From Candidatus Poribacteria bacterium (GTDB taxonomy: Bacteria > Poribacteria > WGA-4E > JAJDTR01), in NCBI GenBank assembly GCA_028820655.1, contig JAPPIK010000045.1, forward strand, positions 1 through 64,000: DNA of 64,000 nucleotides. The letters run 5' to 3'. A program made the translations under genes and the position numbers. Each line of letters opens with the position of its first letter. Position 1 is the stretch's first letter. Shown here in pieces: positions 54,135 through 63,581 of the stretch. A model generated the notes under the pieces. That model saw nothing but the letters and a program-made list of their open reading frames with translations, made no database searches and had not been told where the DNA came from.

Positions 54135-54439
54135 GCGTCGTCATTCGATGTCGGACGGGATCGAACGAACAAGCTAGGGCTGCGATACAATCAGCGTAGT
54201 ATGATCTGTGAGATCAAGACCTTGTTCATGAAAAGGGGAGCTGATTCACACGAATAGTCGATTACCTACGCTATTCACCAAGTTTCTCGACTGAAGGTGC
54301 ATGGTAACCCCCGCGAACCCTATGAATGATTCGCAACACATGACACGAAGAGATGCAGAATCCACAATGTCCGGCTGCCGGCAATTCTTAAAATTATGAA
54401 ATACCCCAAGAACGAGTTCCGAAAGGAAGGTAATTGTTC
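54135..54439. other. Intergenic region, no feature seen
   Basis: 305 bp with no gene, no clear promoter and none of the dispersed repeats. A GTAGTATGAT word occurs at 54195 and again at 60344. Confidence 0.5.
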
Positions 54440-56149
54440 ATGAAGACAAGATCGTTCACCGGTAATCCCTCACAGATTTTGATCGAGCAACTCGCGGCTT
54501 CCGGGGTGAAGTACGTGTTCAACAACTCCGGGTCGGCGGAGGCTCGATTCTTTGACGCGCTGCATGAGAACCCGGACGTGCACGGCATCCTCGCGCTCCA
54601 CGAAGGGGCGGTCGCCGGCATGGCTGGCGGATATGCGCAGGCAAGCAAAGCTCCAGCCGTCATGTGCGTCCATCTCGGAGCCGGTCTGGCGCAATCCCTC
54701 GGGCAGATGATTAACGTGTGGAACGCCAGGCTGCCCGTTGTGGTCATTACGTATGCGGCGGACTCGGGCAGCGGAAACGATAGAGCCGGTTGGGGCCATC
54801 ATCTGAGCCACAATGCGGGACCGACATCCATTTCCACACCCTTCGTTAAGGCGCAGTGGGCGGTAATCAAGCCCCACGGTATTGCGCATGCCATATATCG
54901 TGCGCTCTTGGTCGCCAAGACGCCGCCGGTTGGAGCCGTGCATCTGGCGTTGTACGAAGACACACTCGTTACCGATGAAATGGAATCGACCATTGTAGAA
55001 GGCGGCCTACCGGATGTCCAAGCCGGCTATCCTTCCGACAGCGATATTGAGGAGATCGCGCGCGGTTTGAGTGACGCAGCCCATCCCGTGCTTTATATCG
55101 GAGACGGCATCTGGAAAAGCGGGGCGGAGGAGCAGCTTGTCGCCTTTGCAGAGCGTTACGGGATTCCCATCACCGGCGGGGGCAATCAGTGGATGCGCAC
55201 CGTTCCGGCGAACCACGAGTTGTATTGCCAAGATAGTGGTTCGCTGGATCCGGATTACGTCATTGCCATGGGCGTCCGCCACTCGGGTGGTTATAACCAG
55301 TTCTCCAAAGCACGGACGATTGTTGCCGTCGGTCCCGATGTCGACAATATCAAAAATCTGGAAGGTCTTGACCTGGCGGTGTTGGCGGACGAGGGACGAA
55401 CGCTTGAGAAACTCGACGAGTGTCTGAGTTCGGCGTCGGGGGATGCCGACCGGTATGCCGAGCGGCGCCGATGGGCGCTGGAGCAGGCGGCGGTGCAGCA
55501 GGAGGAACGCAAGCGGGAGATGCAGAGCGTTCCTGCACAAGAATCTCGTGTGCGTCCGTGGGTGCTCGCCGACACGCTCGACAAGAGCTTGGAGAATCGC
55601 GGCGGCGGCTTGATTTTGATGGAGCAGTTTGCGTTGATGCAATGTATCGGCGGCTTGCAGCCCGCCGGAAACAATGTGTATCTCCAACCCGCCGGCGGTT
55701 CGGAAGGTTACGGCATGGGGGCAGCCATCGGCGTAAAACTCGCTGCGCCGGATAAACCGGTGGTCGGTCTTGTCGGAGACGGTTCGGTGTATTATTCCGA
55801 TTCGGCTTTCTGGACGGCGGCTCGCCATAAGGTGCCGGTTCTTTACGTGATTCCAAACAACGGGGCATACGGGGTCGTTGCTCGCGCCTTCGGAAACGCG
55901 GGGGGCAGTATGCGGAAGACCGGCGAGTACGCGGGAGTCGTTCTGGATAATATCGATATCGTGAAAATCGCCGAAGCGTACGGAGTGGACGGTATGCACG
56001 TGCAAGAGGAGTCCGAACTTGGCGACGCCATGGAGCAAGGATTAGATGTAGTTGAAGGCGAAGGTCGTCCGTACATCCTGGACGTGCATCTACCTGTCGG
56101 TCTTCCGCAAGGCGGCCGTCCGGCAACACCGTACCACTTCCCGGAGTAG
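54440..56149 (+). CDS. Thiamin diphosphate-dependent enzyme, acetolactate synthase/benzoylformate decarboxylase-like
   Basis: A 569-residue ThDP enzyme. Start 54440 has AAGGAAGG nine bases before it. Domain order: N-terminal PYR domain (ILIEQLAASGVKYVFNNSGS, then ILALHEGAVAGMAGGYAQAS with the catalytic Glu in H-E), central domain (HPVLYIGDGIWKSGAEEQLV) and C-terminal PP domain with the ThDP motif GLVGDGSVYYSDSAFWTAAR and VLYVIPNNGAYGVVARAFGN. No FAD-linked block is obvious, and the catalytic residues fit decarboxylases and lyases of this superfamily. Reaction unknown. It stands alone between the COG3014-like gene and a coiled-coil gene. Confidence 0.88.
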   Translation: MKTRSFTGNPSQILIEQLAASGVKYVFNNSGSAEARFFDALHENPDVHGILALHEGAVAGMAGGYAQASKAPAVMCVHLGAGLAQSLGQMINVWNARLPVVVITYAADSGSGNDRAGWGHHLSHNAGPTSISTPFVKAQWAVIKPHGIAHAIYRALLVAKTPPVGAVHLALYEDTLVTDEMESTIVEGGLPDVQAGYPSDSDIEEIARGLSDAAHPVLYIGDGIWKSGAEEQLVAFAERYGIPITGGGNQWMRTVPANHELYCQDSGSLDPDYVIAMGVRHSGGYNQFSKARTIVAVGPDVDNIKNLEGLDLAVLADEGRTLEKLDECLSSASGDADRYAERRRWALEQAAVQQEERKREMQSVPAQESRVRPWVLADTLDKSLENRGGGLILMEQFALMQCIGGLQPAGNNVYLQPAGGSEGYGMGAAIGVKLAAPDKPVVGLVGDGSVYYSDSAFWTAARHKVPVLYVIPNNGAYGVVARAFGNAGGSMRKTGEYAGVVLDNIDIVKIAEAYGVDGMHVQEESELGDAMEQGLDVVEGEGRPYILDVHLPVGLPQGGRPATPYHFPE

Positions 56150-56858: not shown

Positions 56859-56968
56859 AACGAAATTTCGCATTCGCGCGTAATTCGCGTGAGAGCAAAG
56901 ATCTCAATTAAGTATCGTTGGAAGCATCGCATCTCAGCCGTTTCCAAACCGGTTATGATAAGGAAATC

Positions 56969-57775
56969 ATGGAACAGAAGGGGACGAGGTTGGCAGGAAA
57001 AGTCGCGATCGTAACGGGCGCAGGCACCGTCACCGATCTCGCCGGAACAGGCCAAGCCATGGCTATCCTGTTCGCGAGGCACGGAGCGAAGGTGATTGTG
57101 GCAGACATGTCGGAGGAGAACGCACAAAGAACGCTTGACACGATCAAGGCTGAGGGAGGCACGGCGTCGCTGTTCACGGTAGACGTAACCAAGAACGCGG
57201 AATGCAAGGCGATGGTGGACGCGGCGGTTGAACGCTACGGGGGGTTGGACATTCTAATCAATAACGTAGGGATTGGCCGCGGCGGGACAGTGGTCGAAGT
57301 CTCCGAAGAGGAGTGGGATCTCGTGCTGAACGTCAATCTCAAGAGCATGATGCTAACCAGCAAGCACGCTATTCCGACCATGATCGAGGGAGGTGGCGGC
57401 GTAATTATAAACCTGTCCTCAATCAACGGACTGCGCGCGGGTTGGATATCCGATGTACACTACAGCGCGTCGAAAGGCGGTGTCGTTGCCATGACGAAGA
57501 ACATGGCGGTGCATCACGGTCGGGAAAACATCCGCGTCAATGCCATTGCCCCCGGACACCTTTACGCATCACTTGTCAGCAAGATTTCCGATGAGCAGCG
57601 AGAGATGCGCCGCCGCGCGGGCCCATTGGGGACGGAGGGCACAGCTTGGGATGTCGCTTGGGCCGCGCTGTTCTTGGCGAGCGACGAAGCACGTTGGATT
57701 TCAGGTGTCGTATTGCCGGTTGATGCCGGGCTCATTGCGGCAACGCCGCTTGCAATGCTCCCCCATTTGCAATAG
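56969..57775 (+). CDS. Short-chain dehydrogenase/reductase
   Basis: A 268-residue NAD(P)-dependent oxidoreductase. Start 56969 has AAGGA four bases before it, a short distance; the upstream extension has no homology. The nucleotide site reads GKVAIVTGAGTVTDLAGTGQ, longer than the usual T-G-x-x-x-G-x-G by about four residues. Then VIVADMSEENAQRTLD, GGLDILINNVGIGRGGTVVE (the N-N-x-G strand), VIINLSSINGLRAG, and the catalytic Y-x-x-x-K in HYSASKGG. The C-terminus (ARWISGVVLPVDAGLIA) is typical. Substrate unknown. On its 3' side lies a remnant of the oxygenase gene. Confidence 0.92.
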   Translation: MEQKGTRLAGKVAIVTGAGTVTDLAGTGQAMAILFARHGAKVIVADMSEENAQRTLDTIKAEGGTASLFTVDVTKNAECKAMVDAAVERYGGLDILINNVGIGRGGTVVEVSEEEWDLVLNVNLKSMMLTSKHAIPTMIEGGGGVIINLSSINGLRAGWISDVHYSASKGGVVAMTKNMAVHHGRENIRVNAIAPGHLYASLVSKISDEQREMRRRAGPLGTEGTAWDVAWAALFLASDEARWISGVVLPVDAGLIAATPLAMLPHLQ

Positions 57776-57859: not shown

Positions 57860-58099
57860 TTAGAGCAGTTCCATCTTGGCGGCGGGGTCCGGATTGGGTG
57901 CCATGTCCCAGAACGCGATGGATAGCGTGTACGCCGTTTCATCGTATGCGTCCACCCAATGGGGTGCATGCCAAGGACTCCATAACGCCTGCCCCGGGTT
58001 CAACTCAAAACTGAGAATATCCGATTCTTTTATGCTGCGATAGCATTTCCTGCCGAAAAACTGTGGAACGGGTACACTCTTCAGATCGCAGTAATGGTT
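57860..58099 (-). pseudogene. Truncated copy of the JmjC-like oxygenase 3' end
   Basis: An 80-codon frame that begins mid-gene and ends with its own stop (TAA at 57860-57862). It reads NHYCDLKSVPVPQFFGRKCY, then RSIKESDILSFELNPGQALW and so on to DPAAKMELL. Bases 57864-58024 are identical to 60484-60644 of the intact gene. Beyond 58024 the copy is diverged, lacks 23 codons of the intact gene, and has HYCD where the intact gene has the metal motif YHCD. It has no start, so it is not functional. Together with the intact gene it brackets the HD/YwgA module in direct orientation. Confidence 0.85.
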
Positions 58100-58144
58100 A
58101 GCGACGGAAACAAAAATCCGTTTTTAAATCCTGCCAAAACCACT

Positions 58145-58174
58145 TTGACATACTTAACATACGTATGGTATAAT
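58145..58174 (+). promoter_or_regulatory. Consensus sigma-70 promoter of the HD/YwgA module
   Basis: TTGACA (58145-58150), 18-nt spacer, TATAAT (58169-58174). Both hexamers are perfect. The predicted start near 58181 is only about six bases before the ATG at 58187, so the message is nearly leaderless. Confidence 0.8.
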
Positions 58175-58186
58175 TTGGCTGCTTCG

Positions 58187-59539
58187 ATGAACAAGCGTCC
58201 GTATGAGATTCGAGACCCAATACACGGTCTCATCGAACTCTCACAGAAAGAACTAGATATAATCAACACTAAGGCTTTTCAAAGGCTTCGCCGGATTCGC
58301 CAATTGGCAATGGCGTTTCTAGTATATCCCGGCACCTTACATACCCGATTCGACCATTCTATCGGTGTAATGCACATTGCCGGACGAATCTGCGAACAGC
58401 TTAAGTCTTCCGCTGGAATAGAAACTAAAGAATGCGATGGTATTAGGCTTGCTGCCTTGCTTCACGATATCGGCCATGGGCCGTTCAGCCACGTTTCCGA
58501 ATACCTTCTGGATCTGTATGCACCGAATCAAGCAAGTGAAAACTCCGACCGAGAGAAAATCCACGAGCGTGTTACAGTTGACATCGTCAAGAGCGAATCG
58601 GAAATCAAAGAAGTCCTCAGTTCTGAGGAACGTAAATTTATCATTGATATGATTGTCGGAAAACCAACGCGGGATTTCAAGCGCGACATCATTTCTAGTG
58701 ATTTGGATGCAGACAAAATGGATTATCTACTTCGGGATTCGTACTTCGCAGGCGTCAAATATGGGACTTATGACTTAGATAAAATCGTTGAATCATGTCG
58801 TGTACATTTTGAAGAAGACGAATCATACCTTGCAATTAGCGACGAGGGGAATCACGCGCTTGAGCAACTTCTGCTGGCGAAACACCATATGACACAACAG
58901 GTATATCGTCATCGCGTTAGGTCGATTTCTGATGCGATGATTGTTCGTGGCATTGAGCTTGCGATTAACCAGGGGAACCAGGAACTACAGAAACTTTACC
59001 AATACAGAGAGAATTCCAACTTTATAGATAACTACATTGAATATCATGATGAACGGTTGATTGACATCCTTATGCGATGCGATCAGGAAAAGGGCCGTAG
59101 GATTTTCGAACGGCTTTATCGGCGGCAATTATTCAAGATGATTGGCGAACTGCCTCTAAAGCGTGTAGACAGCGCGCCAGCAAAAAGACGGCTCCTCCAA
59201 ATGCACCAAAGTCAGAGGCGACAATGGGAAGAGGGCATTGCGAGGCATCTCAGGATCGATCCAGACGAAGTAATAGTCAACAAGCTCCAGACAGGAAATC
59301 CCAACTATGGAAGTCGAAGCTATAGCATTAATCCAGAAGCTGTGATGATTTATGATGAGGCGCAAAGTGGCTTAAGGAGTCTTAGTCGTTACGGATCTGA
59401 ATTGGTGTTGGTCCGTCCTCCTACCGATGAAGCTGACTTGGAAACCGTTCAAGTTTGTGCACCTCAAGACGAGCGGAATAGTCAACAATTCCTATTGCAA
59501 CTTCAAGAGAAAGTTCAAGAGATTCTGTTATCCTCCTGA
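58187..59539 (+). CDS. HD-domain phosphohydrolase (SAMHD1/YwfO-like, probable dNTPase)
   Basis: A 450-residue HD hydrolase. Start 58187 (MNKRPYEIRDPIHGLIELSQ) is the family start and follows a perfect promoter; the earlier ATG at 58094 lies before the promoter. The metal site is H57 (TRFDHSIG), H93 and D94 (ALLHDIGHGPFSHVSEYLLD) and D176 (SSDLDADKMDYLLRDSYFAG), the set of SAMHD1 and of Bacillus YwfO. It has the R-x-x-x-I-x-Q-L motif of the substrate region (FQRLRRIRQLAMAFLVYPGT). By family it would remove triphosphate from dNTPs or act on other nucleotides. The next gene is YwgA-like, as beside ywfO in Bacillus subtilis. Confidence 0.88.
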   Translation: MNKRPYEIRDPIHGLIELSQKELDIINTKAFQRLRRIRQLAMAFLVYPGTLHTRFDHSIGVMHIAGRICEQLKSSAGIETKECDGIRLAALLHDIGHGPFSHVSEYLLDLYAPNQASENSDREKIHERVTVDIVKSESEIKEVLSSEERKFIIDMIVGKPTRDFKRDIISSDLDADKMDYLLRDSYFAGVKYGTYDLDKIVESCRVHFEEDESYLAISDEGNHALEQLLLAKHHMTQQVYRHRVRSISDAMIVRGIELAINQGNQELQKLYQYRENSNFIDNYIEYHDERLIDILMRCDQEKGRRIFERLYRRQLFKMIGELPLKRVDSAPAKRRLLQMHQSQRRQWEEGIARHLRIDPDEVIVNKLQTGNPNYGSRSYSINPEAVMIYDEAQSGLRSLSRYGSELVLVRPPTDEADLETVQVCAPQDERNSQQFLLQLQEKVQEILLSS

Positions 59540-59582
59540 CACGGGAAATTGGAGAAGAGTATCCCAAATGAAAGGAAATCGT

Positions 59583-60155
59583 ATGCACGTTCAAGACCTG
59601 ATTTTGCTTGTAATTGGAAATGAGAAGCAGAAAAGGCTACGAGGGCGAACCACGCTTCAAAAGAAGCTTTATTTCCTCTCAGTATTGAATGAAACCAACC
59701 TCGGTTTTCGGCCACACTACTATGGACCTTATAGTAGTGAAGTTGCGGAAAATCTTGATATTCTCGTAAGCACTGGTTTCCTCAAGGAGGTAACAGAGAC
59801 TTTTGTTTCGGATGCTTCAACAATCTCAAAAGACCAAAATATCTTTGGAGAAATCCGCCGTCATACTTATTCCATGACGCCTGATGGAAATACCGTAATG
59901 AAAGAAATAGAACGGGAAGACGGATACCCTGATTGGGTGCAATCTCTTAATCTCCTAAATGGAAAACTGTCGAACAATTATTTCAACACCCTTTCAATCG
60001 CAGCGAAAGTCCATTACATAGTCAATCAGCAAGGAAGTGCCACACGTGGGCAGATCCGAGAAATCGCGGAACGGTATGGCTGGAATATTAAACATACACA
60101 GATCGAAAAAGTTCGTTTGTTGCTAGAAAATCTTTCCCTAGTGTCCGTAGAATAG
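59583..60155 (+). CDS. YwgA-like protein, partner of the HD hydrolase
   Basis: A 190-residue protein. Start 59583 has AAAGGA six bases upstream; the longer frame overlaps the HD gene. The protein begins MHVQDLILLVIGNEKQKRLR, then GRTTLQKKLYFLSVLNETNL and FRPHYYGPYSSEVAENLDIL, a winged-helix-like start seen in the YwgA family (G-R-T-x-L-Q-K-x-x-Y-F, Y-G-P-Y-S). The C-terminal half is helical (GQIREIAERYGWNIKHTQIE). The family is linked to HD hydrolases in Bacillus but its role is not known; the Y-G-P-Y-S motif also occurs in SocA/Panacea antitoxin-like proteins. It starts 44 bp after the HD stop, so the two are cotranscribed. Confidence 0.75.
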   Translation: MHVQDLILLVIGNEKQKRLRGRTTLQKKLYFLSVLNETNLGFRPHYYGPYSSEVAENLDILVSTGFLKEVTETFVSDASTISKDQNIFGEIRRHTYSMTPDGNTVMKEIEREDGYPDWVQSLNLLNGKLSNNYFNTLSIAAKVHYIVNQQGSATRGQIREIAERYGWNIKHTQIEKVRLLLENLSLVSVE

Positions 60156-60479
60156 TATGAGTTCTATCTTGATTTAAAGATTGAGATTGGTTTAAAAGCC
60201 ACCTATGCTTCTGCAGAAGCTTCTTCAACTAGGCTCTCAAAACATAGGTCACCATTGAATCACTTGGGATCCGGCTCATTTTCGCCCCTATAACCTGTGA
60301 ATGGGGTCGACATATCAATCTAGCGAGTACAATTTATATCGTAGTATGATAGAAAATCCCTATGAGCCATTTGGTCTCTTCACCGAAAGTGTTTTCAATC
60401 CTCGGGAGCAGTGTAGCAGGTAACTATCTTGTCAACTAATCCGGATTTACGGCAATACTAGGTGCCGTCCTAATTGCGC
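60156..60479. other. Intergenic region with a 14-bp palindrome
   Basis: No gene. A perfect palindrome GCTTCTGCAGAAGC lies at 60207-60220, flanked by ACCTATG (60201) and CATAGGT (60243), which can pair. This may end the HD/YwgA transcript. The right boundary of the duplicated unit is at 60480. Confidence 0.55.
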
Positions 60480-61214
60480 CTAAAGCAGTTCCATCTTGGC
60501 GGCGGGGTCCGGATTGGGTGCCATGTCCCAGAACGCGATGGATAGCGTGTACGCCGTTTCATCGTATGCGTCCACCCAATGGGGTGCATGCCAAGGACTC
60601 CATAACGCCTGCCCCGGGTTCAACTCAAAACTGAGAATATCCGAGTCTTTCAGGTCGGCTGGCTTTACCTCCTCCCCATCTGCCTCTTGTAGGTCGAGCG
60701 GGCACCACTTCTCCGGTTCTTTCAGGCTGTGGTAGCATTTTCTGCCAAAAAGCTGTACGACGAGTACACCCGTCGGATCGCAGTGGTAGTTGGTTGAGCA
60801 GTTCGGACCGCTGAAGAAAAGAATTGGGAGAACCTTTTGCCACGACAGCCCCTGATCCTTCCAGAGGCTAGTGACCGGCAGATAGATCTGCTCTATAACT
60901 TCCGCCAACGCGCCGCATTTTTCGCGCATAGAACCCAGTTGGAAAACGGTGATATGGATCGGCGCTTTTATCGCTTCTTCCAACGGCAGCGCTTGAAAAT
61001 CGACTTCCGGCGTTTTGAGCGTGGCGGAGAATCGGTCGGCGCGCTCGCCTTGTCCGATACGCGCTTGAGGATGTGTCCGCGCCTCTTCCGTCACTTGTAG
61101 CAAATCCGTTTCAGGTACGGCGAAGGGAAACACCTCGCCCCCCACACGATGCGCTACAAGTTTGGGTATCGCCTCACGAAACTCAGAGAAGTTTGTGATT
61201 GGTTGTGTCTCCAT
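60480..61214 (-). CDS. JmjC/cupin-like 2-oxoglutarate-dependent oxygenase
   Basis: A 244-residue protein with the double-stranded beta-helix of cupin_8/JmjC proteins. The iron motif is H144-x-D146 in STNYHCDPTGVLVVQLFGRK and the distal H212 in WHAPHWVDAYDETAYTLSIA. SDILSFELNPGQALWSPWHA is the strand before the distal His. The N-terminal half (residues 1-120) holds substrate-side helices. Such proteins hydroxylate protein side chains or small molecules; the substrate is unknown. No ribosome site is clear. Its 3' end is duplicated at 57860-58099. Confidence 0.85.
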   Translation of the reverse strand: METQPITNFSEFREAIPKLVAHRVGGEVFPFAVPETDLLQVTEEARTHPQARIGQGERADRFSATLKTPEVDFQALPLEEAIKAPIHITVFQLGSMREKCGALAEVIEQIYLPVTSLWKDQGLSWQKVLPILFFSGPNCSTNYHCDPTGVLVVQLFGRKCYHSLKEPEKWCPLDLQEADGEEVKPADLKDSDILSFELNPGQALWSPWHAPHWVDAYDETAYTLSIAFWDMAPNPDPAAKMELL

Positions 61215-61244: not shown

Positions 61245-63581
61245 TCATTTAAGGGGTGAAATAGTTAAAGATAATTGACCTTGTTTCTCCCACTCGCAGC
61301 GTTCAATCCAATCCTCTGCGCTGAGGATTGAGCCGAGCGGCAAGTCATCATCTTCGGACAGCCGTCGAAACTGTGCGATTGCGCCGTCGTACTGCCGTAG
61401 ATGATAAAGATTGATGGCAAAAAGCCGCGAATTCTCGTTCTTCAAAACTCGATGCGGCAAACCGAACGCCGCCGCTTTTAAAAGGTAGTCGTTCGATGCC
61501 GCATACTGCCCGTCAAGATGGAGTTGGCGCCCGATTAGATAGAAAGCAAGCCCCCACTCCGGCATCTCGTCAACCACCTCGTGGAGTAGGTTAATCCTTG
61601 TGGCGCTTGATTCCCTCCCAATCAACACCTGTTTCATACGTGAACGCGCCGTCGGCGATTCAAGCGACAGCGTCTCCAGTTTGGCATACGCTTCTCGGTT
61701 GAGCGCGTCAGACGCGTTGAGCGCCGATACCTCTTGATAATGCGTACGCGCGGATTCGCGGTTTCCGGCACCCCAGTCCATGTCGCCGCCCACGTTTTTG
61801 GCATCGGCGATTTGACGCGTTGTCGCGGCGGGGTGCGCGATAATTTTTCTCGCCCATTGGCTTGCTTGAGTGTAATCTCCCGTCCGGAAGTGAGCGTGCA
61901 TTAGCCCGCGCAAGTGTCGCGGGTTGTCGGGATCAAATTCGTGAATCCGATCGAACAACCGGATTGCCTGCGCAAAGTCCGACTGACGATACGCCTTCCA
62001 CGCCTCCGCCGAGAGTTCGGCAATCTCGTGCGCACACCTCTTCTGAAAGATGCTCCCGCGCTTCAAACGGTGTTCCGCTGCTGTCAAATCCGCGGTGGTC
62101 AACGGAACGGTGTCCAAAAACGTCTCCCAATCGCTCGTTAGTTCCGATAAAGATTTGCCGTAAGCGGCTCTGAAATTCCCGGTCGGAAAGGCGCGCTTGA
62201 ACGCCTCTATGCCGTAGGCCTCCACCACGTATCGAACGAATGATCCGGCGAGCATGTAACTGCGCGACGACGCCTGCGCCCAAAAACCGAACCCCATGAT
62301 TTGGCCGATTGAAGGAGCGACGCCCGACTCTCGCATCGCCCTGCTCCATTGATGAGGTGTCAATTTCCCCTCGTTCCAATTGGCGGCGACGGCGATGCCT
62401 TCGTGCAACCCCAGCTTCAGGCTAACCTTGAAAAACGGATGCCAATCTGTCGTCAATGCGTGGACCAATTCGTGTTTGATGATTGGGTGAGGAAACGGCT
62501 CATAATTGACGTGAAAGCCGTAGCCAAACGGGTCTTCAACCAAGGTGTGTCCGGCGCCGATTAGGTGTTTCTTTTGTTCGGGGGATGTGTAGATATAAGC
62601 GTTCACCTTCCTCGAGGGTTGCGTCCGGAGGTAGTCGATTAACTGGGCATACCGAAACTCGTGGTCTCGTGCAATCCGCTCGATTTCCCGTTCAACCTTC
62701 GACCCCTTTTCGTAGAATATCTTGAAATGTTCCGTTTCATGCAGCCCTCCCAGCGCATTCTCGATGTATCCCCGCGTCGGGCGCAAGCCGAGTTCGCCTC
62801 TGTTCAGGTAGATGAGTAGCAGTAGGCATGCGAGAACGATGAGTTGAATCCGAGGATACACATCCGCGAAACGCAGCTTGAAACGATAGACTTTCCGCCA
62901 GTTCAAGGTGTGGACAAGATGCGGACGCCTACCACTTTCCAATACTATGATTGAGATTGTCAGAAAGAGCCACGCCAGCAGGAGCGCCGTTCCGCGCGCA
63001 ATGAGCAGCGAGCCGGTGATTGAGATCTGTTCATCGTATATGGGGCCGGGAAAGTATCCGAAAGCCGCATGAAACCCGAACACCGGGGGATGGAATACGA
63101 GATTGTAGACGAACGTGAGAAACGTGACAAGGATATACGCCAGATATGCGCTATACCCACCCCATCGCCGTTTCATCCAGAAGCCGAAGAACAGACCGGC
63201 GGCGGTTGCATAGGCGCAACTGATTACCGGCAGCAGGAAAAAGAAAGCAAAACCATCGGAAAGATCACAGTTCTCCACGCGCAGCGCGTTCAGGGAGAGA
63301 ATAACGAGCGGCGCAATCAACAGCGTCAGGCTGCTCCCAAACGTCCTCCAGAATAGGGTTATCACGATATGGTGGGAAGTGCCTGAAGGAAAATGGAGTG
63401 AGCGCCGCAGACGGTGCACGCCTGTTACGCTGATATACGCCCCGGCAAATGAGATTGCGATGGCGAGAACGGCGCAAGATTCATACGCTAACAGGTTGAA
63501 CAGCGGAACCTGAATCAGCGCCAATCCCAAAGCCGCCAAAATAATGAACCAGAGCCAGTATGAGATGGATTTGAAGATCAT
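61245..63581 (-). CDS. Membrane zinc metallopeptidase with C-terminal TPR repeats
   Basis: A 778-residue protein. Residues 1-260 hold about seven membrane segments, for example FIILAALGLALIQVPLFNLL, LLPVISCAYATAAGLFFGFW and LIVLACLLLLIYLN. Residues 280-480 are a gluzincin-like domain: H370-E371-x-x-H374 (HELVHAL) and E394 (GLHEGIAVA), consistent with a membrane-tethered peptidase facing the periplasm. Residues 500-770 are TPR-like (LFDRIHEFDPDNPRHLRGLM, YLIGRQLHLDGQYAASNDYL). No ribosome site is seen before the ATG. I do not recognise the exact family. Downstream neighbour is the JmjC-like gene, 30 bp away, so the two may be cotranscribed. Confidence 0.82.
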   Translation of the reverse strand: MIFKSISYWLWFIILAALGLALIQVPLFNLLAYESCAVLAIAISFAGAYISVTGVHRLRRSLHFPSGTSHHIVITLFWRTFGSSLTLLIAPLVILSLNALRVENCDLSDGFAFFFLLPVISCAYATAAGLFFGFWMKRRWGGYSAYLAYILVTFLTFVYNLVFHPPVFGFHAAFGYFPGPIYDEQISITGSLLIARGTALLLAWLFLTISIIVLESGRRPHLVHTLNWRKVYRFKLRFADVYPRIQLIVLACLLLLIYLNRGELGLRPTRGYIENALGGLHETEHFKIFYEKGSKVEREIERIARDHEFRYAQLIDYLRTQPSRKVNAYIYTSPEQKKHLIGAGHTLVEDPFGYGFHVNYEPFPHPIIKHELVHALTTDWHPFFKVSLKLGLHEGIAVAANWNEGKLTPHQWSRAMRESGVAPSIGQIMGFGFWAQASSRSYMLAGSFVRYVVEAYGIEAFKRAFPTGNFRAAYGKSLSELTSDWETFLDTVPLTTADLTAAEHRLKRGSIFQKRCAHEIAELSAEAWKAYRQSDFAQAIRLFDRIHEFDPDNPRHLRGLMHAHFRTGDYTQASQWARKIIAHPAATTRQIADAKNVGGDMDWGAGNRESARTHYQEVSALNASDALNREAYAKLETLSLESPTARSRMKQVLIGRESSATRINLLHEVVDEMPEWGLAFYLIGRQLHLDGQYAASNDYLLKAAAFGLPHRVLKNENSRLFAINLYHLRQYDGAIAQFRRLSEDDDLPLGSILSAEDWIERCEWEKQGQLSLTISPLK

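Follow-up and report, generated by a model that had tools for sequence, protein, structure and literature searches.

Organisation of the locus

The window analysed here is a 64,000-nucleotide stretch of contig JAPPIK010000045.1 (assembly GCA_028820655.1) from Candidatus Poribacteria, a sponge-associated bacterium. Towards its right-hand end it carries two genes side by side on the plus strand, one encoding an HD-domain protein and the other a YwgA-like protein, and direct copies of the 3′ end of a neighbouring oxygenase gene stand on either side of the pair. We describe the families to which the two proteins belong, their conserved pairing and conserved promoter, their acquisition and the structure of the scar beside them. 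The central features are:

58145..58174, plus strand: promoter of the HD gene, TTGACA-18-TATAAT with a TG extension (motif at 58152-58174; start codon 12 nt downstream)
58187..59539, plus strand: HD gene, predicted EF1143/SAMHD1-type deoxynucleoside triphosphate (dNTP) triphosphohydrolase of 450 residues (PF01966, PF19276)
59568..60155 (start may be 59583), plus strand: gene of a YwgA-like protein of 195 residues, homologous to the C-terminal domain of DarG and encoded on its own (model, fold and profile matches)

The HD gene starts at 58187; the mechanical open reading frame (ORF) start at 58094 is too early.

Families of the two proteins

The HD protein is placed with the EF1143/SAMHD1-type enzymes and is a predicted dNTP triphosphohydrolase. 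It matches the Pfam families HD and HD_assoc_2, and its core is homologous to those of solved structures (2hek, 2e-47; EF1143, PDB id 2o6i, 2e-38; SAMHD1, 4e-30), the closest of which also include 9mr6, an entry named in a paper on fungal SAMHD1 (PMC12042053). The metal motif H...HD...D, as described for EF1143 (PMC8177086), is complete (H57, H93-D94, D176) and invariant in 14 relatives. Since EF1143 lowers the dNTP pool (PMC8177086), this homology bears out the first-pass annotation, made from the letters of the window, which had suggested that the gene may encode a nucleotide-depleting enzyme. A Dgt-type dGTPase identity was considered and rejected (40 bits against a cut-off of 152 for TIGR01353, and 29 against 400 for the antiphage dGTPase).

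The YwgA-like protein of the window matches no Pfam family above the cut-off, but the NCBIfam and PADLOC models of DarG match it over their C-terminal part. Its AlphaFold model has a mean pLDDT (predicted local distance difference test score) of 84, and a Foldseek search with this model returns a single PDB entry with E under 0.001, the DarTG complex of M. tuberculosis (7yk3, E 5.9e-6, probability 1.00). A profile built from 17 divergent family members finds 7yk3 at E 7.7e-8 and aligns to the C-terminal part of a macro-fused DarG with a probability of 98% (hhalign), and all 17 members match the DarG model. Both profile and fold thus make the protein a homologue of the C-terminal domain of DarG, here encoded as a gene of its own. 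According to a passage of PMC11481870 that cites Deep et al. 2023, the domain covers the active site of DarT in the DarTG system. No YwgA relatives were found in the plasmid, phage and IMG/VR collections. A search of the open literature, which is weak evidence, returned nothing on YwgA biology and nothing linking dNTPase, HD domain, antitoxin and phage.

Conserved pairing

The YwgA family is present in 19 of 85 Poribacterial genomes and HD in 15 of 59. The pair is thus accessory in the phylum and not the core housekeeping unit that the first-pass annotation had named as an outcome fatal to its proposal. An intact HD gene lies directly upstream in 15 of the 18 readable intact Poribacterial YwgA genes, and the ends of the two genes often overlap. 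Of the other three YwgA genes, those of G046 and of the second G030 locus adjoin an HD stub, and that of G004 has no HD. At the second G039 locus HD is frameshifted and YwgA is gone. G078 was dismissed as a case of degraded HD; its contig is only 4,020 bases long and ends inside the gene.

The pairing extends beyond the phylum. Within the class to which the Desulfobacterales genome G088 belongs, 23 of 390 genomes have a match to the YwgA domain, and their neighbours, read by eye, are an adjacent HD in 15, DarT with a macro fusion in two, a DUF488 fusion in three and other or unreadable genes in three. HD is therefore the commonest neighbour of the YwgA/DarG C-terminal domain in this class, and the pairing across genomes that had been put forward as a check is conserved in both groups. 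As two adjacent, co-directional genes with conserved pairing, HD and YwgA have the arrangement of a type II toxin-antitoxin system. Fusions of a YwgA/DarG C-terminal-like domain to DUF488 occur at L125, L136 and L137, in L136 beside a methyltransferase-like gene, and make DUF488 a further partner of the domain.

A conserved promoter

The HD promoter is a perfect (12/12) sigma-70-type match. Poribacterial HD genes have in common the motif ACTTAWCRNA-N4/5-GGTATAAT, located ~10-25 nt upstream of the start codon. Its exact form occurs 15 times in 18 genomes, and 13 of these hits lie at HD loci; the reversed control gives none. The conserved spacer sequence suggests a dedicated operator, and HD-YwgA may be autoregulated. 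As the window has no XRE neighbour, the regulator, if there is one, would be YwgA itself or a protein encoded elsewhere.

A second exact copy of the motif is found on the same contig of the window genome (G000:C18:96040-96062; L144 16241-17100). It precedes ~1.6 kb that have no clear ORF and contain three imperfect ~100-nt repeats bearing CACTCCAGCGGAGTG hairpins. Rfam has no match for this stretch, which may encode a non-coding RNA under the same control. The motif also occurs in a genome that lacks HD (L175 ~1501; G041:C1:1460006, minus strand), where it precedes a TcmP-like ORF and a Gp37/Gp68-like gene, both named by eye; judging from this locus, the motif may be a promoter common to several defence-type operons.

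Defence genes around the pair

In ten of the 15 intact Poribacterial pairs, the 10 kb around the pair contain a gene of the PLD/HKD-SNF2 helicase type, a type IIG restriction-methylation gene of the Eco57I kind, or both; most of these ten loci have both, and some of them are truncated where the analysed stretch ends. The order helicase, methyltransferase, HD, YwgA, XRE is found in L030 and L032, and related helicase/methyltransferase sets at L024, L025, L027-L029, L034, L139 and L141. TIR and AAA_15 genes also occur near Poribacterial pairs, and YwgA without HD is found in such islands as well (G004, L066, L143). Defence genes of these kinds were found neither in the window nor in the remainder of its contig (from 60 kb onwards), nor in the control loci. 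Defence islands, which the first-pass annotation had suggested looking for, are thus a feature of most of the pairs and of none of the control stretches. The same annotation had guessed that the partner is a regulator or antidote, and it does look like one, being a DarG C-terminal-domain homologue that pairs with HD across phyla and often lies among defence genes.

A swap of partner to a methyltransferase or TIR gene was considered for the YwgA genes of L066 and L067, and was abandoned in view of gaps of 370-640 bp; both are better described as orphans in a defence island. In L079 (7368-8534, minus strand), ~1.5 kb away from an intact HD-YwgA pair, fragments of a macro domain resembling that of DarG are found together with an ORF of the MNT nucleotidyltransferase type (named by eye), so both kinds of module can share an island. 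DUF1156 methyltransferase-like genes stand beside HD-YwgA pairs and DarTG alike (L123, L124, L127, L131).

A variable site with a recombination scar

The surroundings of the pair consist of the following features:

56966..57775, plus strand: short-chain dehydrogenase (SDR) gene, left conserved flank (Pfam; syntenic in G001 with 86% DNA identity, homology ends at 57766)
57861..58024, minus strand: left copy of the repeat, corresponding to the 3′ end of a JmjC_2 gene (equal to 60481-60644 save one base)
58025..58105 (end approximate), minus strand: old diverged JmjC fragment that continues the left copy after a 72-bp jump (58/75 identity to 60717-60791; protein alignment)
60156..60480, no strand: AT-rich non-coding stretch that separates YwgA from the stop codon of the oxygenase gene and occurs once in the genome
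60481..60644, minus strand: right copy of the repeat, within the intact JmjC_2 gene at its 3′ end (repeat comparison)
60480..61214, minus strand: intact JmjC_2 (cupin-type) oxygenase gene (Pfam 8.6e-6), absent from the same-genus genome G001
61245..63581, minus strand: gene of a TPR-containing membrane protein, right conserved flank (Pfam TPR; syntenic in G001 from 61284 with 83% DNA identity)

The HD-YwgA block has the lowest GC content of 124 sliding windows (~0.435 versus 0.528, standard deviation 0.026). The ratios of non-synonymous to synonymous change (pN/pS) relative to G012 are 0.24 for HD and 0.34 for YwgA, which indicates that both are maintained as proteins. The low GC content, the absence from G001 and the patchy distribution in the order support the view that HD-YwgA is a recently picked-up module. 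Of the earlier proposal of an excisable or recently inserted cargo, recent acquisition therefore stands, while excision as a property of the element does not.

The same-genus comparison consists of one genome, G001, in which LpoB-type and TPR lipoprotein genes are followed by SDR and then by the TPR membrane-protein gene. Homology to the window breaks at 57766 and picks up again at 61284. The intervening 1.1 kb of G001 contain no HD, no YwgA and no JmjC oxygenase; their cargo is a toxin gene of the Gp49 (HigB-like) type, broken by a frameshift (one piece matches Pfam at 3.6e-5). In L063 (3722-4470; G001:C70, minus strand) this broken toxin gene is followed by an antitoxin-like ORF with a TPR at its end. 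The SDR-TPR gap is thus a variable site with different cargo in the window and in G001, and the oxygenase gene belongs to its variable part. The empty site that had been expected, with SDR adjoining an intact oxygenase gene, is not seen in G001, nor are there two full-length oxygenase paralogues around the pair in all close relatives, an arrangement named beforehand as contrary evidence. With one same-genus genome, a gain of the pair in the window lineage and a loss in G001 would both fit.

The two copies agree with their earlier description. Positions 57864-58024 and 60484-60644 are identical, in the same orientation and 2,620 bp apart, with only the HD gene, the YwgA-like gene and their promoter between them. 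This perfect run of 161 nt, which cannot be due to chance, lies within a match of 163/164 positions (57861-58024 and 60481-60644), and the repeat search extends it to 57861-58030 versus 60481-60650 at 99% identity. A search of the genome revealed no third copy. The repeat unit is the 3′ end of the JmjC_2 gene on the right, whose intact form has orthologues (58% identity) in three genomes of another family in the same order; the left copy is a JmjC_2 pseudogene that has lost its 5′ part. Identity between the two stops exactly at 58024. Position 58025 aligns to 60717 of the right gene, so that 72 bp, kept by all JmjC_2 orthologues, are jumped in frame, and beyond the jump only 58 of 75 positions agree (77%; 58025-58099 versus 60717-60791). 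The sequences TCCGAGTCTTTCAGG and TCCGGTTCTTTCAGG lie close to either end of the jumped stretch in the right gene and are a plausible microhomology.

The left copy is therefore a chimera, in which a recent copy of the neighbour's 3′ end is joined to an older diverged JmjC fragment, and the break in identity, the jump and the divergence beyond it mark it as a recombination scar. The alternative offered in the first-pass annotation, an old diverged paralogue homogenised by gene conversion, is half right. Either recombination of partly homologous DNA at insertion or strand invasion that copied the right gene would explain the chimera. By itself the repeat is of minor interest, as a record of the entry of cargo into a variable site; the two copies look like a scar and not like a working excision device.

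Other differences are found close by. The TPP-enzyme gene at 54434-56149, between the lipoprotein and SDR genes, is absent from the syntenic place in G001 (86 bp between the matched stretches) and is a second presence/absence difference, 2 kb from the HD-YwgA finding. A short transmembrane/coiled-coil ORF at 56376-56858 matches several unlinked places in G001 at the DNA level (73-79% identity), and a similar ORF lies at L042 5905-6261; together they represent a dispersed family without assigned function. The stretch 63775-63993 matches dozens of places in G001 and encodes a dockerin-like C-terminal repeat (NPADVNGDGVVNILDL), apparently common to many proteins. The window has no match to known RNA families.

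What the pair may do

The pair is probably an undescribed defence or self-restraint system. The reading to which we give a probability of about one half is that of a horizontally acquired two-gene module, in which a dNTP-depleting effector is restrained by a partner of the DarG C-terminal-domain type; here we infer dNTP hydrolysis, inhibition by binding, the trigger, autoregulation and defence. The module would have inserted into the SDR-TPR gap, a place occupied by other cargo in the nearest relative, and the chimera derived from the 3′ end of the oxygenase gene would be the scar of this insertion. In healthy cells the YwgA-type protein would bind the HD enzyme and hold it inactive, and it may repress the shared promoter as well. 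Phage attack or another stress would free HD, which would drain the deoxynucleotide pool and so stop replication of the phage or of the cell.

The two loci that retain an intact YwgA beside an HD stub count for this restrained-effector reading, and several points weigh against it. The reverse situation, an intact HD beside a truncated YwgA, occurs once, in G049 and G027, which have the same flanks and are counted as one event. It is a main weakness of the reading, being at odds with a strict antidote role unless HD is silent there or YwgA acts in trans. The window pair stands alone, without the helicase and methyltransferase neighbours of its relatives, and the AlphaFold model of HD is poor (mean pLDDT 60). 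Finally, the YwgA-like protein of the window is not acidic (isoelectric point 8.7), which gives no reason to assume the DNA mimicry of DarG; mimicry by charge was also discarded for the family, whose isoelectric points span 4.7 to 9.2.

We consider it unlikely that the pair serves ordinary dNTP-pool homeostasis, with HD trimming dNTPs, YwgA as its regulator or subunit, and neither of them serving as toxin, as antidote or in defence. In its favour, two dNTPases, EF1143 and Caulobacter FssC, are of a housekeeping type, and phage susceptibility is unchanged by fssC (PMC12186491). HD_assoc_2 proteins are present in 10 of 14 control genomes, B. subtilis among them, and the persistence of HD without YwgA in G049/G027 also suits homeostasis. 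However, the Poribacterial pair is accessory, of foreign composition and often surrounded by restriction, TIR and helicase genes, and its partner is a homologue of an antitoxin domain.

Less probable again is that HD-YwgA provides the effector for a larger defence cluster linked to methylation (a PLD-SNF2 helicase and a type IIG restriction-methylation gene besides HD, YwgA and XRE), with YwgA coupling HD to the signal of the cluster and the window copy a detached remnant. The gene order of L030 and L032, the related sets at eight further loci and the HD-less YwgA genes still in such islands (L066, L143) would fit, but two different helicase/methyltransferase types accompany the pair (the helicases are 27% identical), several pairs have neither gene nearby (window, L026, L031, L036, L140), gaps and strand changes are common, and the window genes are still under purifying selection.

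It is highly improbable that recombination between the two copies releases HD and YwgA as cargo, placing SDR next to an intact oxygenase gene as first proposed. A perfect repeat in direct orientation at the 3′ end of an intact gene, enclosing DNA of foreign base composition, recalls an att-type element. However, there is neither a recombinase gene between the copies nor a tRNA in the window, relatives show no clean empty site, the G001 site that lacks the pair also lacks the oxygenase gene, and site-specific insertion does not predict a left copy that, beyond an in-frame jump of 72 bp, continues as diverged JmjC sequence. Rare RecA-type deletion between the copies is possible.

A wider proposal than the restrained-effector reading can be made only tentatively. 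The DarG C-terminal/YwgA domain may be a general toxin-restraining module, whose commonest partners would be SAMHD1-type dNTPases and not DarT, and HD-YwgA an undescribed, phylum-crossing antiphage or toxin-antitoxin system with Panacea-like swapping of partners (HD, DarT/macro, DUF488 fusion).

Comparison with known systems

Like EF1143 and SAMHD1, the window HD has the HD core, the metal motif and the HD_assoc_2 region. It differs in having a conserved genetic partner and, in its relatives, a defence setting, and its C-terminal part past residue 350 is unmatched by solved relatives. With DarTG the module shares a protein homologous in sequence and fold to the DarG C-terminal domain, encoded beside a potentially toxic enzyme. 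Unlike DarTG, which the control locus L127 represents with both a macro domain in the antitoxin and an adjacent DarT, the window module has neither; its enzyme is an HD dNTPase and its YwgA-like protein is not acidic.

Panacea (PanA, DUF4065/SocA; PMC8832971) resembles HD-YwgA in the way it works, with one domain beside several unrelated effector genes. The two also have a similar QK...GP motif, and PF13274 is weakly matched by two of 17 YwgA-family members (best 4.7e-5). Identity with the Panacea antitoxin was nevertheless rejected, as the window protein does not match PF13274 and the profile-profile probability (hhalign) is 2.8%.

The nearest described system in logic, with unrelated parts, is Clover. 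It consists of the dGTPase CloA, toxic alone, and the nucleotidyltransferase CloB, which restrains CloA and makes the inhibitor p3diT (PMC12265719). The likeness is one of working principle: in both, one of two genes encodes a dNTPase effector and the other its presumed restraint. CloA is a dNTPase of another type, the window HD not being Dgt-type, and YwgA, which has no match to a nucleotidyltransferase family, would act by binding.

If YwgA does restrain HD, one protein fold would block enzymes with unrelated substrates, a dangerous dNTPase would be kept off without a nucleotide second messenger, and the uncharacterised YwgA family would gain a testable function. We file HD-YwgA among the restrained nucleotide-depleting modules, separate from DarTG, Clover and Panacea, where it would tie nucleotide-depleting immunity (SAMHD1, dGTPase, Clover) to the antitoxin domain of DarG.

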